Shown here one piece after another: positions 57,199 through 63,763 of a stretch of 64,000 bases of DNA. The notes under the pieces were generated by a model. That model made no database searches. It saw nothing but the letters and a program-made list of their open reading frames with translations, and was not told the origin of the DNA. This stretch comes from an uncultured Flavobacteriales bacterium (GTDB taxonomy: Bacteria > Bacteroidota > Bacteroidia > Flavobacteriales_E > Vicingaceae): contig CAJQOH010000016.1 in assembly GCA_905479915.1 (NCBI GenBank), positions 1 through 64,000 of the forward strand. The letters run 5' to 3'. Within the stretch, counting starts at the first letter, position 1; each line of letters opens with the position of its first letter. Both the position numbers and the translations under genes were made by a program.

Positions 57199-57346
57199 AA
57201 CAACCACCAAAAGAATCCCGTTAATATTTATAATCAATAGAAATGAATAATAATAGGACTTTCATAAACGAGTAAAAGCCTTATAATTAATTCAATGAAC
57301 GTTTACTAACTTTAAGTATAAAATAAAAGTAATAAATATTAATGGA

Positions 57347-57418
57347 AAAGTGGATACAAAAGTGGATACACTTGAACAAAAATCAAAATTTGGTGAAGTA
57401 GATACAAAAGTGAATACA
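57347..57418. repeat. Phased 12-bp repeats near the attachment site
   Basis: AAAGTGGATACA occurs at 57347 and 57359 exactly, GAAGTAGATACA at 57395 and AAAGTGAATACA at 57407. All four start at multiples of 12 bp from the first (0, 12, 48, 60). Paired direct repeats about 150 bp inside an att site resemble arm-type sites of a tyrosine integrase or excisionase; a replication or regulator iteron is another option. Confidence 0.6.
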
Positions 57419-57447: not shown

Positions 57448-57693
57448 TTATTTCTTTTTTATCTTTCCTGTATATTTTTCTGCTACAATAAGTTCATTCA
57501 TTGGAACATCTAATATTTCAGAAATTTTTGGAAGTTCCCACCCCGAAGGTTGAGCTTTATTCTTGCAAATATTAGAAACATGAGTTTGTGATTTACCCCA
57601 TTTTTTCATTAAATCTTCTTGCTTCCACCCTTTAATAAGTAGTATTTCTGCTATTCGGTTAATTCTAACACCTATATATTCTTCTTTAGACAT
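57448..57693 (-). CDS. XRE-family helix-turn-helix regulator of the mobile element
   Basis: 81 aa. HTH_3 fold: IAEILLIKGWKQEDLMKKWGKSQTHVSNICKNKAQPSGWELPKISEILDVPMNELI. It is the first gene inside the attachment-site end. A perfect palindrome lies 22 bp upstream of its start and is likely its own operator. Control of element excision or of the PRTRC operon is plausible, not shown. Confidence 0.85.
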   Translation of the reverse strand: MSKEEYIGVRINRIAEILLIKGWKQEDLMKKWGKSQTHVSNICKNKAQPSGWELPKISEILDVPMNELIVAEKYTGKIKKK

Positions 57694-57753: not shown

Positions 57754-58047
57754 TTATTTTGACTCGTCTGAAGAAATAAAAATCTTACTAAACATTCCAA
57801 CTTCATAATCTTCGCTGAGTTTCATTACACTTTCAAATTTATAGTTCATCAAATCCTCATTGAAGCCTAAAGGAATTAATATTTCTTTTTGTTCCTCTGG
57901 AGAAAAACCATCATACTTCCCATTTTCAAAAATTATACTTGCTCCCTCTCGTTGTTCAACGTTATAAGTTTCATAACATATTCCTTTTGTTCCTGGCATA
58001 TTATTCAAACACTTGGTTCTTAATTTTACAACAGTTCCGACTATCAT
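57754..58047 (-). CDS. Unknown soluble protein of the mobile element
   Basis: 97 aa from the ATG at 58047 (MIVGTVVKLRTKCLNN); a longer frame from 58098 exists but its start repeats part of the gene (AAACACTTGGTTCT occurs at 58007 and 58076, an in-frame 69-bp spacing), so the shorter start is chosen. Acidic C-terminus (EEQKEILIPLGFNEDLMN, KIFISSDESK). Family not recognised. Lies after the terminator of the PRTRC operon and before the XRE gene, with its own promoter not identified. Confidence 0.5.
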   Translation of the reverse strand: MIVGTVVKLRTKCLNNMPGTKGICYETYNVEQREGASIIFENGKYDGFSPEEQKEILIPLGFNEDLMNYKFESVMKLSEDYEVGMFSKIFISSDESK

Positions 58048-58114
58048 TAAACTTACTTTTCTTTTGATTATAATTAAACACTTGGTTCTGTCCGTCAAAA
58101 ATACTTTTTATCAC

Positions 58115-58154
58115 AAAAAGAGAGCAAGTAATAATACTTACCTACTCTCTTTTA
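58115..58154 (-). terminator. Terminator of the PRTRC operon
   Basis: AAAAGAGAG (58116-58124) pairs with CTCTCTTTT (58145-58153), and AAGTA/TACTT extend the stem inside; on the minus strand a T-run follows. It lies 25 bp after the ThiF stop, marking ThiF as the last gene of the operon. Confidence 0.75.
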
Positions 58155-58178
58155 ATAATTCAAAAGTACTTCATTCTA

Positions 58179-59003
58179 TCATACTACTTTTACTTTAGAA
58201 TTAATAAATTCTTTAATTTTTATTGGATTACTTTTTAGCGTTCCCATATTGACGTATGCTCCTTGTTCTTCAATTTTAGCTTGTTTAAAGAGATTCCATA
58301 GTATTTGCATACCAAAGGGTGCTAACATACAATTAGTAAATAGGTCTTGTTTTAAGAGTGCTTCTTCGGTGGAACAGCTTGGGGTATTATCTTCTTCATC
58401 GACTTGGTCAATGTTTGGAAATAGGTCTAATACCGTTGGTAAATAACTTGCTGTATCGAATTTAGATTTTGGTTGTTCTAATGTTCGTTGTGTTCCTAAA
58501 ATTACTTGCCCTGTATCTTTACCATTGCCATAGTCTAACCAATAGTAGGGTGTTGAATGGGAAGTGTACATACTAAATTCTCGATTCTTAATATAGTCGT
58601 TTTGAATTTTTCCTATTGATACTCTTGCTTTTCCTGTATCAACGCAAGTGATTAGGATATTTGCTCCTTTTAATTCTTCATCCTTGATATGTTCTTGTTC
58701 GTATCGGTATGTATGGCTTTCCCAATCTGTACCAAATGCTCTGTTTACTCGATTGACTAATACTGTTGCTTTATGATGTCCTACATCGGGTTCAAAAAAC
58801 AATTGCCTACCCAAATTGGGTGCTTCGACTTTATCATCGTCAAATACTCTTACGTGTAATCCTAAGTGGTTTAATTTTCTTAGGGTACTGTGTAATAATG
58901 CTAATTTGGTCAATACTTGTGAGCCTGTTCCTCCACAACCAACTAAGTTAACGGTTATTGGGTGTCTTGGATTAATTAAATATTGGTCTGTATAGTGTAT
59001 CAT
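58179..59003 (-). CDS. PRTRC system ThiF-family protein (E1-like adenylyltransferase)
   Basis: 274 aa. Rossmann nucleotide-binding motif VNLVGCGGTGSQVLTKLA (GxGGxG at 22-27), adenylation-domain blocks VRVFDDDKVEAPNLGRQLFF (Asp/Asn/Arg of ThiF/MoeB/E1) and ILITCVDTGKARVSI. Candidate catalytic cysteines are in TPSCSTEEAL and FTNCMLAPFG. This is the PRTRC ThiF family: an E1-like enzyme that would adenylate the C-terminal Gly of a ubiquitin-like protein. Starts 10 bp after PRTRC-B. Partner for PRTRC-C is inferred from co-location. Confidence 0.9.
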   Translation of the reverse strand: MIHYTDQYLINPRHPITVNLVGCGGTGSQVLTKLALLHSTLRKLNHLGLHVRVFDDDKVEAPNLGRQLFFEPDVGHHKATVLVNRVNRAFGTDWESHTYRYEQEHIKDEELKGANILITCVDTGKARVSIGKIQNDYIKNREFSMYTSHSTPYYWLDYGNGKDTGQVILGTQRTLEQPKSKFDTASYLPTVLDLFPNIDQVDEEDNTPSCSTEEALLKQDLFTNCMLAPFGMQILWNLFKQAKIEEQGAYVNMGTLKSNPIKIKEFINSKVKVV

Positions 59004-59013
59004 TTATCTATTT

Positions 59014-59742
59014 TTATAGGAGTTGATTTAATTTTGTGTTGCTTGGTAACAAGTAACCTTTTGGAAATTCTTTATTGGTATTGATTAATTCTCTCCAGAG
59101 TTCATTTATATCTCCGTTAATGGGTGTACCGTGTATCTCGGAAAATTTGGTGTACCAAAACACATTTTCCCACGCTTTCATTAATTCTTCAATATACTTC
59201 CCTTCTATTGTTGGTTTTTTGCCTTGTCCTAAACAAACATTTCCGTTCACACCAGTATTGTGAAATGGTGCTTTGTAGAGTTTGGTTTTCTCGGTGGGTT
59301 TACTTTTGGTCTTAGTTGTAAATATTTGGAGGTTGTTATTTTTTACAACATATACTATAGTCGGAACACTAGCTTTTCCTGTGGGGATTCCTAAGCCTTT
59401 TGTGAAGTACATTTTTTGACGTGATGGGGATTGATACCAAATTAGGGTGTACTTTTTTTCTTCTTGATGAAAATACAGTAGATTTTCTGAAAATAGTTGT
59501 TTGCTTTTTAGGTAGGTTTTCGATTTTTCTTGGTCAATAATTGCTTTACCTAATTCCTTGATTGTTTCTTTTTGGAGAGGTTTTCCTTGTGATAAGATTG
59601 ATTTTCCTTGTTCATCTAAATTTATATTGTGGTGTTCTATGTAATAGGGTTGACTATCCCATTGTGCGGTATCTCCTTTTTCATAGATTATCAACGCTTG
59701 TTTAGGTTGTAATTGATTGGATATATTGATAATGTCTTTCAT
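59014..59742 (-). CDS. PRTRC system protein B (E2-like fold)
   Basis: 242 aa. Matches PRTRC-B by its context and by the block APFHNTGVNGNVCLGQGKKP, in which NGNVCLG mirrors the active-site NGxxCL of ubiquitin E2 enzymes (His161, Cys170). This family overlaps the Prok-E2_D class in my memory. Predicted to accept a ubiquitin-like protein as a thioester. ATGA overlap with PRTRC-F (4 bp). The target of transfer is unknown, and an E3 was not found. Confidence 0.85.
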   Translation of the reverse strand: MKDIINISNQLQPKQALIIYEKGDTAQWDSQPYYIEHHNINLDEQGKSILSQGKPLQKETIKELGKAIIDQEKSKTYLKSKQLFSENLLYFHQEEKKYTLIWYQSPSRQKMYFTKGLGIPTGKASVPTIVYVVKNNNLQIFTTKTKSKPTEKTKLYKAPFHNTGVNGNVCLGQGKKPTIEGKYIEELMKAWENVFWYTKFSEIHGTPINGDINELWRELINTNKEFPKGYLLPSNTKLNQLL

Positions 59743-60887
59743 ACTAATGCTGTTTTTAGTTCAAGTGATAAGTCGTCTCCTGTTTTAAAAAATTGGGTAA
59801 TTTCTTTTGGAAATGTTGTTGACTGTGGCTTTTTAAAAGTGTTGTCTGATGGTTTGGTTACTTCCCAATTAATAAATGGGGATTCTCCGTATTCGTTTGC
59901 TCTTACTTCTAAGGTAGCCATATATTCTGAAAAGAAATTATCGTTTTGATCCCACGACAAAAACATATATTCATCGGGTCGTAGGATATCATCATCTTCG
60001 TATTCGTTTAGTCTTGGGTAGTAACAGAATTGATGAATGCCTGTTTTAGATTTGATAATACTTATTCCATCTTCTATCCAATCGTACAACTGCTGTTCGA
60101 GTTTTGTTTTGGGTTTAAATTTAGATAGCTTTTTTGCTAAGGTTTTTAGGGTAGATTGATTGTTGTTTAATGATATTGAATAATAATTGGCTGTTCCCTC
60201 GGTGTAGTTAGATATGTCTAGTTCCCACGCTCTTTTTTCTTCTTCGGTTTCAAAGTCATCACGTTCTATCATCCAATCTAACGACCATTCTCCGTGCTGT
60301 TCATCCCATAGGCTGACTTGTGTTATTCTGCGGATTTGAGCGAACAAATCCATTAAAATGTCGTGTAACAATTCATTTTCAACTCGAAGCTGTGGCAGAA
60401 AACAGAGCGAAATGGTATAGTAACCTCCGTTATCGAGGTATATTGATTCGGTTGTAACTAGATTATAGTCCGTTTCTTGGTAAGGTTGTACCAATTGCCA
60501 ACTGTATTCTTGTCCTATAAGGGTATTCATTTCTTCTATGAGCCAAATCAATACTTCTCTTTCTTCGGTAATAGTGTTCCAATTTTGGTTATCTTTAAAT
60601 TGGGGGTGTTTTTGAAGATATTGATAAAGCAATTTTATCAAGTTAATATGAGCGATACGGTCTTTGAGAAATTCGTAATCTCTGCCAGAATTAACGTAAG
60701 CTTTGGTGTAACTGACAGGGGTTATATTCTCTAAAAAAGAAAGTCCAAGGTTTCTGAAGGTGGTAGTACTTTTTCTTGTTGTTCCTCCATATTGTTGGAG
60801 GGTTGATTTTCGTTTTTTAGAATGTCTCCCAATCTTCGGTAAAAGTCCGAGTTGTCGGGTTTCTCTTGATATGGCTCGTTGTTGCAT
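59739..60887 (-). CDS. PRTRC system protein F
   Basis: 382 aa, soluble, acidic. I assign it to PRTRC-F by order in the cassette (C, F, B, ThiF), length and the middle region (YTISLCFLPQLRVENELLHD, TQVSLWDEQHGEWSLDW). No catalytic motif is visible; the family's biochemical role is not known. The start at 60887 places its first 52 codons inside a 64-codon frame (60731-60925) in another phase, so either the start or the phase is uncertain. Overlaps PRTRC-B by 4 bp. Confidence 0.7.
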   Translation of the reverse strand: MQQRAISRETRQLGLLPKIGRHSKKRKSTLQQYGGTTRKSTTTFRNLGLSFLENITPVSYTKAYVNSGRDYEFLKDRIAHINLIKLLYQYLQKHPQFKDNQNWNTITEEREVLIWLIEEMNTLIGQEYSWQLVQPYQETDYNLVTTESIYLDNGGYYTISLCFLPQLRVENELLHDILMDLFAQIRRITQVSLWDEQHGEWSLDWMIERDDFETEEEKRAWELDISNYTEGTANYYSISLNNNQSTLKTLAKKLSKFKPKTKLEQQLYDWIEDGISIIKSKTGIHQFCYYPRLNEYEDDDILRPDEYMFLSWDQNDNFFSEYMATLEVRANEYGESPFINWEVTKPSDNTFKKPQSTTFPKEITQFFKTGDDLSLELKTALV

Positions 60888-60925
60888 TGTTGTTGTTGTG
60901 TTTTTAGGTATTGTTGGGTATTCAT
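60731..60925 (-). CDS. Overlapping 64-codon frame between PRTRC-C and PRTRC-F, uncertain
   Basis: ATG at 60925 lies 4 bp after the PRTRC-C stop. The product is polar and low-complexity (QQYLKTQQQQCNNEPYQEKP, then NSDFYRRLGDIL, PSETLDFLF). It ends at a T-run (CTTTTTTAG), and a -1 slip there would join it to the PRTRC-F phase. It may be a true small gene, the real N-terminus of PRTRC-F reached by frameshift or sequencing error, or chance. Confidence 0.35.
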   Translation of the reverse strand: MNTQQYLKTQQQQCNNEPYQEKPDNSDFYRRLGDILKNENQPSNNMEEQQEKVLPPSETLDFLF

Positions 60926-60929
60926 CTGA

Positions 60930-61148
60930 TTAGCCTTTTACTTTTGGATTGCTTCCAAATTCATAGACCAATACATCGTCTATTATTCCTTTGTTATCAA
61001 TGGTCGCATTGGTTAGTTCTGAATAATTATCTTCAAAAAATGATTTAACTCTTTCGGGTGTCCAATCTGTATTTGGGTCGGATAATTCTATTGCTTCGTT
61101 TCCTCTTTTGATGATAAATTTTCTTTCTATTCCTGTTACTTGTAGCAT
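60930..61148 (-). CDS. PRTRC system protein C (prokaryotic ubiquitin-like)
   Basis: 72 aa. Beta-grasp pattern: VTGIERKFIIKRGNEAIEL, then DWTPERVKSFFEDNYSELTNATI and DDVLVYEF, with the sequence ending in VKG, so the last residue is Gly72 as required of an activated ubiquitin-like protein. Matches the PRTRC-C/Prok_Ub family as I know it. Likely the conjugated modifier of the cassette, activated by ThiF and carried by protein B. Starts 30 bp after PRTRC-E. Confidence 0.85.
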   Translation of the reverse strand: MLQVTGIERKFIIKRGNEAIELSDPNTDWTPERVKSFFEDNYSELTNATIDNKGIIDDVLVYEFGSNPKVKG

Positions 61149-61178
61149 AATTTTATTGTTTAAATGAACATTGTTTTG

Positions 61179-61613
61179 TTAAGCAAAGAGATCTAATTCT
61201 CCGCCTTTTTCTTGTGATTCTCCTTGTACCTCAACTTCTTTCTCTAGTGTATTTACAATCGGTGTAGAGATGGAAGCAACTTTTTTTACAGAGGTTTTCT
61301 TTCCATTTTTATTGGCTAGTTCTTCTTTTTTCTTTGCTTCAATTGAAGCCATTGCCTTATCGTGCCATTGAATGTTAGCAATTACTCCTGTTGCTTTTTC
61401 TAAGGGTTGTTTGATAGTAGCAATAAAATCATTGTCTAATTCGGTTGCTGTTCCTTTAATGTTTAAAGGTGGAATACTGTTTATTGCATCTTTACTATTG
61501 GGTTTGGGGTGTAGTGCTATAATTAAGTTATTCCCCGATTTACTGATTTTAAGGTTAAGGTCGGTATCCTCGTTCATTAATTCTGATAGCTGTGTAAAAA
61601 ATTGATTTTCCAT
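61179..61613 (-). CDS. PRTRC system protein E
   Basis: 144 aa. N-terminal domain with NQFFTQLSELMNEDTDLNLK and NLIIALHPKPNSKDA, then PPLNIKGTATELDNDFIATI, the family core as I recall it; the C-terminal 40 residues are a charged, low-complexity tail (KKEELANKNGKKTSVKKVAS). First PRTRC gene of the cassette here. Its role is unknown. PRTRC-D, A and the ParB-type gene usually near this set are not in the window. Confidence 0.85.
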   Translation of the reverse strand: MENQFFTQLSELMNEDTDLNLKISKSGNNLIIALHPKPNSKDAINSIPPLNIKGTATELDNDFIATIKQPLEKATGVIANIQWHDKAMASIEAKKKEELANKNGKKTSVKKVASISTPIVNTLEKEVEVQGESQEKGGELDLFA

Positions 61614-61632
61614 TGTTATTGAGTTTTAGTGA

Positions 61633-61824
61633 TTAATTTAAGTCTGTTGGGGAGATATAGAAACCGTTACCATTTATGTCTAGCCTTACCTCTTTTTGTA
61701 TAAATAAGCAGAGGTATTTACAAAATTTAATGGCTTCTGAACGGTTTTTAAAGGAGAGTAATTTTTTAGGTTGTCTCTCCCATTTTCGTTTATCTCTCTT
61801 GGTTCTAATTTCAAATTCTTTCAT
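61633..61824 (-). CDS. Small basic unknown protein
   Basis: 63 aa, Lys/Arg-rich (IRTKRDKRKWERQPKKLLSF), then NRSEAIKFCKYLCLFIQKEV and a beta-like tail DINGNGFYISP. No domain recognised. Separated by one base from the upstream gene and by 19 bp from PRTRC-E, so it belongs to the operon. Nucleic-acid binding is possible given its charge. Confidence 0.55.
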   Translation of the reverse strand: MKEFEIRTKRDKRKWERQPKKLLSFKNRSEAIKFCKYLCLFIQKEVRLDINGNGFYISPTDLN

Positions 61825-61825
61825 A

Positions 61826-62086
61826 CTAGCTTTGTTGTTTATTAATAATGTTCTTGATTTGTAGATAGTTATTACTGTCCTCTGCTATGTCTTTATGTTC
61901 ACAAGTAGAGTTTAGCCCATCAGCAGAACCAATGAACACAATTAAGGCTTGAAACATATTATAAAAGTGTCCTTTAACATAATCTTGATAGTACTTGCTT
62001 TCAATGAATTTTTGTGCTAATTCTTCAAGGGTTAAATCGTACTTGTTTGATATTTTGTTGTCTTTGTATAGTTTAATTTTTTTCAT
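61826..62086 (-). CDS. Small unknown protein
   Basis: 86 aa, helical (LTLEELAQKFIESKYYQDYV, YNMFQALIVFIGSADGLNST). No family recognised. It stops one base before the next gene's start, in an operon with the methylase-like gene upstream (gap 21 bp). Confidence 0.55.
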   Translation of the reverse strand: MKKIKLYKDNKISNKYDLTLEELAQKFIESKYYQDYVKGHFYNMFQALIVFIGSADGLNSTCEHKDIAEDSNNYLQIKNIINKQQS

Positions 62087-62107
62087 AGGGTTTTGTTTAA
62101 ATGGTTT

Positions 62108-62962
62108 TTAGAATAGTGATAGTTGCTGATTTTCAATAATTTTTGTTAATACTTTTTTCGTTTCTGCCCTTATTGGCTTATCGTTTTTATTTGATTCAAT
62201 TTGTTGTTCAAAATCAAGTATTACTTGCTCTTGTTTCAATTCAATTTCTTGCTTCTTTTCGGGGCTTTCTTGATGTAGTTGTTTGATTTGAGGCATCAAA
62301 CTTGATAGCTTTGGATTAGTGTTTATATCAATTCTAAGTCTAGGAAAACCATATATTTTATAGGATTGGTAAAACTCCATTGAAAGGCTATTCATATTCG
62401 CTATTTCGCCTGTCATACCGTTAAGGAATAGATTTATAGCTGCCATCTTACAACATATTGGGTCAAGGTCTGCTCCATAAAATCGCATTTCGGGATTTAC
62501 TTTTTTTCCCGATAATAGCATTTGACCAGAACCGCACGTAGGGTCTAATATCTTTTTGCCTTTCAATTCTTCGGGGTTATCTCCCAAAGTCATTAAAGCC
62601 ATCATATCTGAAATGTGGGGAGGGGTAAAAAACTGCCCTTTTCGACTATTACTAAATCTTTCCATATAGAAATGACCCAAAATGTCATTCGCTCCGATTT
62701 TATGTAACTGGTCTTTTTCAAGTCCTGTAGTATCTCCCCCCGATTCCATACTCATAATTAATTGTGCTAACAATTCGGGAAATAGGCTAAAGGTTTCTTT
62801 TTTGTATCTACTAACAACTTGTAGATATTCAGTTTCATACTGTTGTTGACTAAATGCGTAAATTGTAATGTCTAAAAAATCATTAAAAGCATCGTACTCA
62901 TTCAATCCGTAGCTGATTTTATCAAAAATCTTTGCAAATGGTTTTGGGTCTAGTCCGTACAT
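62108..62962 (-). CDS. N-6 DNA methylase-like protein without visible NPPY motif
   Basis: 284 aa. N-terminal helical region about 1-100, then RKGQFFTPPHISDMM (the usual pre-motif of type I/IIG N6-methylases), motif I LDPTCGSGQMLL (140-150) and YGADLDPICCKMAAINLFLNG (motif II-like). The catalytic (N/D)PP(Y/F) motif expected about 60 residues later is absent: that region reads NSLSMEFYQSYKIYGFPRL. Length and the lack of a specificity domain argue against a working R-M enzyme. It may bind AdoMet or DNA without methylating. Confidence 0.75.
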   Translation of the reverse strand: MYGLDPKPFAKIFDKISYGLNEYDAFNDFLDITIYAFSQQQYETEYLQVVSRYKKETFSLFPELLAQLIMSMESGGDTTGLEKDQLHKIGANDILGHFYMERFSNSRKGQFFTPPHISDMMALMTLGDNPEELKGKKILDPTCGSGQMLLSGKKVNPEMRFYGADLDPICCKMAAINLFLNGMTGEIANMNSLSMEFYQSYKIYGFPRLRIDINTNPKLSSLMPQIKQLHQESPEKKQEIELKQEQVILDFEQQIESNKNDKPIRAETKKVLTKIIENQQLSLF

Positions 62963-62968
62963 CTTTAA

Positions 62969-63238
62969 TTATTTAATAGTGTAAGTATCAACTGCTTTCT
63001 CTCCATCATAAAGGGTAATTTCTCCTTTAATAAATCCCATCGTTTCCAAAACCACGTATTCGGTGTATATTTCGTGGTTTGCTCGTCCTTGTTCGTTATC
63101 TTGATAGTTCACGCCTATTATATTGTTCCAAATAACTAGGATTGAACTACCATCGTTACTAGCTAGGATTTTTTGATTGTTTTGACGAATTGATAATTCA
63201 TTATTTGATTCAAAACTTTGTCTTTTTGGCTTGTTCAT
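62969..63238 (-). CDS. Small unknown protein
   Basis: 89 aa; polar N-terminus (KPKRQSFESNNELSIRQNNQ) then a beta-rich C-terminal half (YTEYVVLETMGFIKGEITLY). Six bp before the methylase-like gene, same operon. Family not recognised. Confidence 0.55.
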   Translation of the reverse strand: MNKPKRQSFESNNELSIRQNNQKILASNDGSSILVIWNNIIGVNYQDNEQGRANHEIYTEYVVLETMGFIKGEITLYDGEKAVDTYTIK

Positions 63239-63274
63239 GGATTTTGTTTTATGGGGGATTACTCCCCCAATTAA

Positions 63275-63763
63275 TTAATTTGCAATTCTTTGCTTTTGAT
63301 TCTTCCCATTTTTAGTGATTTTTTCCTCTCCATAGAATCCTTTAATTTGATCGTAGGTTAAAACTCCTTTAGATTTCTTTCGATATCCTTTAGGGGAGAA
63401 ATACCATTGCTCTTTTGCTTTAGAGAATCCACGTTTAAGGGTTTCGCCTGTATCAATGGCTTTAATCTGTTCCTTTATTGGCTTAGTATCTCCTTCTAAC
63501 CATATCCAAGAACCACAAACAACAATTGTAATACCTTCAATATTTAGTAATTGATTAATGATGTCCGCATACTCTTTAGAGTTCCATTGCTCGGCTTCTC
63601 CTTTAAATTTTTCACTTTCGGGTTTGAATGCGTGAAACTGATTAAGCATTTCTTGAAAATCTGCGGTTAATCCTCCTTTATCGGGATGCAGTTTTAATGC
63701 TAGTTTTTTGTATAGGGTCTTTGCCTCGTCTAAGGTTTTACAACCTTGAAAATAGTTTTGCAT
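63275..63763 (-). CDS. J-domain (DnaJ-like) protein of the mobile element
   Basis: 162 aa. N-terminal J-domain half with KTLYKKLALKLHPDKGGL (HPD at 26-28), followed by a unique region (KEYADIINQLLNIEGITIVV, GSWIWLEGDTKPIKEQI) and a basic tail. Helix IV and the G/F region of DnaJ are missing, so it is a truncated J-protein such as phages and plasmids carry to recruit host DnaK, for example to replication complexes. Family beyond the J-domain unknown. Confidence 0.8.
   Translation of the reverse strand: MQNYFQGCKTLDEAKTLYKKLALKLHPDKGGLTADFQEMLNQFHAFKPESEKFKGEAEQWNSKEYADIINQLLNIEGITIVVCGSWIWLEGDTKPIKEQIKAIDTGETLKRGFSKAKEQWYFSPKGYRKKSKGVLTYDQIKGFYGEEKITKNGKNQKQRIAN

Follow-up and report, generated by a model that had tools for sequence, protein, structure and literature searches.

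Here, a DNA window of 64,000 nucleotides (positions 1 to 64000 of contig C16, which ends at 65100) from a Bacteroidota genome of 3.57 Mb and 97.5% completeness was analyzed with respect to a five-gene PRTRC cassette on its minus strand, in which the genes for E, C, a 382-aa protein, B and ThiF run from 61613 to 58179. The cassette is likely to encode the Bacteroidota type of PRTRC system (operon type 6d of Iyer, Burroughs and Aravind, 2006), that is, a ubiquitin-like pathway on a mobile unit in which the modifier C is encoded mature and acts via ThiF and B on a target. The joint presence of modifier, E1-like and E2-like genes on a mobile unit had been claimed in an original prediction for this DNA and is borne out by profile matches, by synteny in about 80 loci and by invariant catalytic positions.

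ThiF reached 248.3 bits with TIGR03736 (cut-off 144.75) and 54.8 bits with PF00899, and it carries the motifs GCGGTG, DDDKV and NLGRQ, in agreement with its predicted identity as a PRTRC ThiF with E1-type motifs. The adenylation residues are kept in all 23 diverse ThiF sequences aligned, and Cys210, located in the motif PSCS, is invariant in 12 Bacteroidota sequences as well as in 23 diverse ones; at the sequence level, we take its PSC(S/T) context to resemble that of the eukaryotic E1 catalytic cysteine. Comparison of a ThiF profile with the PDB recognized UBA6 and UBA1 (~1e-13) and UBA5 (1e-9), in addition to NEDD8 and SUMO E1s, ThiF, Cap2 and BubCD, and with the 12-sequence profile UBA5 ranked best. 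The B protein matched Prok-E2_D (PF14460) with 106.8 bits (cut-off 25) and remained just under the cut-off of TIGR03737 (124.7 against 131.45 bits); in line with the label predicted for it, Cys170 lies in an NGxxCL context (N-G-N-V-C-L-G). Similarly, C showed 58.1 bits with Prok_Ub (PF14454, cut-off 25) and 36.6 bits with TIGR03738 (cut-off 45.95), again slightly under the threshold of the latter. E exceeded the cut-offs of both TIGR03741 (53.4 bits, cut-off 37.95) and PF19556 (8.7e-23) and is a PRTRC E as predicted. A lack of the B cysteine or of the C glycine among homologues had been named beforehand as an observation that would speak against the prediction: the cysteine is invariant in 81/81 loci, and Lys-Gly directly precedes the stop codon in all 70 distinct C proteins.

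The C protein of the window terminates in NPKVKG, i.e., in a single glycine. Among 100 distinct C genes from cassettes lacking a JAB gene, 99 end in Gly and one in Ala. Since the last codons of these genes vary synonymously (AAA or AAG; GGA, GGT, GGC or GGG; all three stop codons in use), it is the protein end of C that stays constant. That the KG end is a mere Shine-Dalgarno effect of the sequence AAAGG is unlikely, because the codons vary and the next start lies at a median distance of 38 nt. The earlier observation that no JAB protease is in view was extended from the window to the genome: a profile search found Prok-JAB (PF14464) nowhere in it, and TIGR03735 (PRTRC A) was absent from it and from 15 cassette-bearing relatives, with the same search recovering A in three control records. 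Near Bacteroidota cassettes, JAB motif matches were restricted to RadC-like genes, and no adjacent JAB gene was detected. The A proteins of proteobacterial plasmids belong to the JAB proteins and contain DUF2016, Prok-JAB and an intact HxHx7SxxD motif.

When the C ends were scored in 190 loci from genomes, plasmids, phages and viral contigs (one locus, L198, was omitted from the tail table), C was found to be tailed after KG in 62 of the 81 loci with A in the cassette and in 0 of the 109 without it (Fisher's exact test, ~1e-29 before relatedness is considered). The tails comprise 1 to more than 100 residues, and some resemble a second domain. The initial plasmid records, in which this pattern was first noticed, are part of the larger set used to test it. 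When mapped on the ThiF tree, A shows 5 changes and the tail about nine, one of the latter coinciding with a change of A; no tail change falls inside the JAB-less parts of the tree, although these account for 40 of 77 branch-length units. Taken as a rule read from sequences, the association of tail and JAB gene is strong in its counts and modest in its phylogenetic support. That C is tailed solely where a JAB gene stands beside it supports, by comparison, the notion that C has to expose its C-terminal Gly. The simplest reading would be that this Gly must be free, that A frees it where C is tailed and that A also has a removal job where C is untailed. Besides, Burkholderia phage BgVeeders33 (L125) and many IMG/VR contigs (L141-L161), which are phages or phage-plasmids, carry the order E-C-F-B-A-ThiF, and in their cassettes C extends 60-100 aa past KG, like ubiquitin fusion precursors.

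Following this, we infer a cascade of adenylation, thioester relay and conjugation. C would be made already mature, ending in Lys-Gly; ThiF would adenylate its C-terminal Gly, probably holding C as a thioester on Cys210; and B would take C onto Cys170 and hand it to the target, with E and the F-position protein (the 382-aa product) possibly serving as partners or adaptors. In other lineages, a tailed C precursor would be cut after KG by the JAB protein A, a step that the Bacteroidota version would not need. As a dedicated remover is not encoded, conjugation of C would be one-way and fall on a DNA-maintenance protein; at a guess, the most likely target is among the DNA-maintenance or replication proteins of the element or its host.

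Several observations weigh against this pathway. With regard to the tail, there are just 5 changes of A and one or two well-supported independent pairs, all agreeing, and with so few independent contrasts a sign test cannot reach significance and is indeed not significant; moreover, A is present and C nonetheless untailed in 19 loci. With regard to B, Foldseek did not recover an E2 fold from its AlphaFold2 model (predicted local distance difference test, pLDDT, 89): there was no PDB match at E<=0.001, and Cap2 appeared weakly (0.44). Assignment of the fold via a PDB sequence profile was likewise rejected for want of a significant match, so that for its E2 label B depends on Prok-E2_D of Pfam together with Iyer et al. 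(2006). In addition, position 202 of B is Glu where 94% of its relatives have the family His, and a His is found at 204; a histidine C-terminal to the cysteine was called absolutely conserved in the B family (Iyer et al., 2006; PMC1779556). Finally, the genome contains another copy of the unit, and this copy has lost the cassette.

Among the alternatives, it is unlikely that C is a sulfur carrier of the ThiS/MoaD kind, which ThiF would thiocarboxylate for a modified base, nucleotide or cofactor, with B not conjugating. The best known members of the ThiF and C superfamilies do carry sulfur, and the fold of B is, as described above, unconfirmed as E2 by Foldseek. However, ThiS/MoaD carriers end in GG whereas C ends in KG, ThiF has the invariant PSCS cysteine as in E1, an E2-family B with its invariant cysteine is always present, and no sulfurtransferase cluster was noticed next to the cassettes.

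The genomic context bears on a further alternative. Searching GTDB genomes with a profile built from 12 ThiF proteins gave at least 537 places encoding a related protein; the best 80 of these, nearly all from Bacteroidota and one from Desulfovibrio, were compared. The order E-C-F-B-ThiF is kept wherever the contig allows, in almost every one of these roughly 80 loci, and B and ThiF overlap by 4 nt in 61/80. In the Bacteroidota loci with 9 kb upstream, the neighbours include genes for SSB (42/65) and DUF932 (35/65) as well as topoisomerase, Toprim/primase-like, helicase, relaxase, TraG and integrase genes. PRTRC cassettes were also found in 385 plasmid records. Neighbours on plasmids are ParB, SSB and dnaN. 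These genes point to replication, maintenance or transfer of the element and not to a defence island. It is accordingly quite improbable that the cassette provides anti-phage or anti-element defence by placing C on phage or immune proteins, in the manner of Cap2/3 of the cyclic-oligonucleotide-based antiphage signalling system (CBASS), Bil or Bub. Its enzyme logic is the same as in those bacterial defence systems, and ThiF gave distant matches to E1-E2 and BilD models and, in the PDB, to BubCD and Cap2; yet PADLOC has no model matching B, C, E or F, the unit lacks an effector, and its partner genes are those of replication and transfer, not other defence genes. As a separate observation, several TIR-domain genes lie downstream of a Sphingobium PRTRC cassette (L127, 13285-16716).

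The mobile unit itself is delimited by the repeat AAAAGTGGNTACAAAAGTGGNTAC, of which contig C16 has exactly two direct copies (57346 and 64922, 7.6 kb apart) and contig C58 likewise two (156 and 4734). The second unit copy, with the same bounds, lies on C58 (L004, 1-4780); it is colinear and 86-92% identical, and homology between the copies stops at the left repeat (57346). In the C58 copy all five cassette genes are deleted or truncated: E lacks its start, nothing remains of C, the F-position gene and B, and ThiF is reduced to a short piece. Short direct repeats (at E, AATAAnAATGGAAA) probably bounded the deletion. The neighbouring genes differ mostly by silent changes, with nonsynonymous (dN) and synonymous (dS) divergence of 0 and 0.25 for the DnaJ-like gene, 0.027 and 0.33 for the methyltransferase-like gene and 0.013 and 0.31 for orf63; they are under purifying selection while the cassette has been lost. 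The unit can thus persist without the cassette, for the time being at least, and in a genome that also has an intact copy. Maintenance of the element without conjugation, either by a regulated complex of ThiF, B and C or with the cassette as a decaying passenger, would suit this deletion with retained neighbours and the displaced histidine of B, but is very improbable given that every gene of the window copy is intact, that the catalytic cysteines are kept and that the family is conserved across phyla.

No relaxase was found in the genome, and integrases are present only on other contigs, which lack AAAAGTGGNTACAAAAGTGGNTAC, so that neither is linked to the unit; the unit may be integrated or mobilisable in cis. 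Both C16 and C58 end about 155-180 bp beyond the right repeat in near-identical sequence, which suggests that the assembly was interrupted by a repeat next to the unit; past this repeat the copies show 99% identity, whereas the unit itself differs by 8-14%. The features of the unit are compiled in Table 1. The range first proposed for the cassette, 57754-63763, does contain the PRTRC genes on the minus strand but also takes in the non-PRTRC genes orf114, orf63, orf86, orf89 and those for the N6-methyltransferase-like and DnaJ-like proteins. An N-6 DNA methylase gene is also located upstream of a Cupriavidus cassette (L122, 1701-2594), as in this window.

Table 1. Features of the PRTRC-bearing unit within the window.
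Feature	Position	Strand	Basis or remark
att-like repeat AAAAGTGGNTACAAAAGTGGNTAC, left end of unit	57346..57369	.	direct partner at contig position 64922, 0.9 kb past the window
Cro/C1-type helix-turn-helix regulator of unit	57448..57693	-	PF01381 6.9e-8
orf114/92, no assigned function	57754..58035	-	found in both unit copies
PRTRC ThiF, predicted E1-like adenylating enzyme	58179..59003	-	TIGR03736 248.3 bits; candidate catalytic Cys210 in PSCS
PRTRC B, Prok-E2_D E2-like, Cys170	59014..59742	-	PF14460 1.3e-30; Cys 81/81
F-position gene, 382 aa, mostly helical, no recognised family	59739..60887	-	no hidden Markov model match; AlphaFold2 pLDDT 80
64-aa open reading frame	60731..60925	-	other frame, overlaps disordered N-terminal part of F-position gene; kept in L039
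PRTRC C, ubiquitin-like modifier, ends KG-stop (encoded mature)	60930..61148	-	PF14454 7.8e-16
PRTRC E	61179..61613	-	TIGR03741, PF19556; C-terminal motif ELDLFA
orf63, no assigned function	61633..61824	-	dN/dS ~0.04 between copies
orf86, no assigned function	61826..62086	-	open reading frame; no Pfam match
N6 DNA methylase-like protein of unit	62108..62962	-	PF02384 4.4e-15; dN 0.027, dS 0.33 between copies
DUF7688 protein	62969..63238	-	PF24737 2.8e-17
DnaJ-like (J-domain) protein	63275..63763	-	PF00226 5.6e-4, under cut-off; protein identical in both copies

The one label of the original prediction that is not supported is that of PRTRC F. The gene at 59739-60887 occupies the place that F has in proteobacterial cassettes, but it matched neither TIGR03742 nor any Pfam model, and a profile-profile comparison (hhalign) of 42 F-position proteins with true F gave a probability of 1.7%, so that it is not recognisable as F and this identity was rejected. 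Its AlphaFold2 model had no match in the PDB and a single match overall, to an uncharacterised phage protein (9.8e-14). The 64-aa open reading frame overlapping it is probably a real small gene, judging from its alignment score of 88 against L039 as compared to 63 for the overlapped part of the F-position gene, and the F-position gene may start later than listed.

Furthermore, E proteins end in or near [DSTNQ]-L-[FWY] in 27 of 62 clusters as compared to 4.4 in shuffles, a pattern picked after the tails had been seen; in the E of the window it reads ELDLFA (61179-61235). The motif resembles the sliding-clamp motif QLxLF. The dnaN gene adjoins the cassette on Aeromonas pS121-1b and lies near it on P. 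aeruginosa pPUV-7. It is conceivable, but a long shot, that mobile elements have in PRTRC a counterpart of PCNA modification, in which E would tether the cascade to the sliding clamp via its LF-type motif and C would be put on clamp or replisome proteins in favour of the element, the mark being one-way in Bacteroidota for lack of JAB.

PRTRC cassettes are common on plasmids and in Bacteroidota genomes, and a function was not found for them in the literature searched; as far as the parts of it consulted go, reports under the name PRTRC cover expression or presence only. An exposed C-terminal Gly of C would be a key step of a ubiquitin-like pathway, and it is this step that the tail rule supports by comparison. 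Bacteroides thetaiotaomicron carries such a cassette, with BT2645 and BT2648-49 annotated as PRTRC genes (PMC10434189), and the questions whether A cuts C after KG and whether JAB-less conjugates are lasting are thereby open to experiment.

As compared to known systems, C shares its single terminal Gly with modifiers such as Ufm1, Atg8 and Atg12, without belonging to the UFM1-UBA5 type at the sequence level. CBASS Cap2/Cap3, Bil and Bub are alike in their logic of E1, E2 and peptidase, and ThiF matches Cap2, BubCD and BilD weakly; unlike in those systems, E1 and E2 are here separate polypeptides, effector and JAB are missing, the context is replication and transfer, and B and C have no match in the defence library. 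Closer are the PRTRC systems of proteobacterial plasmids (TIGR03734-03739, 03741, 03742), which are likewise found on mobile elements in the order ParB-E-C-F-B-A-ThiF and whose E, C, B and ThiF are homologous to those described here. By contrast, the present cassette has no PRTRC-type ParB (the genome search gave only a chromosomal-type ParB, at 107.7 bits versus 278.6), no A, an unrecognisable F and a C that is always encoded mature; A-less members also exist among plasmids, e.g. pWW53. The reading as a conjugation system is not new, since operon type 6d was described as comprising a ubiquitin-like protein with terminal Gly, an E1-like protein, an E2-like protein with a conserved Cys and a helical protein, with B. 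thetaiotaomicron among the organisms listed (Iyer et al., 2006; PMC1779556), and all four components are common to type 6d and this cassette. To this, comparison adds the invariant KG end and B cysteine, the absence of A, the tail-JAB rule, which was not found in the literature searched and may still be published, and the cassette-less second copy of the unit. An adjacent JAB gene, when not fused, was stated to be universal in type 6d (PMC1779556), whereas the Bacteroidota branch is without JAB; the tail-JAB rule, in turn, fits the JAB processing of the ubiquitin-like protein that was predicted for this operon type (Iyer et al., 2006; PMC1779556).

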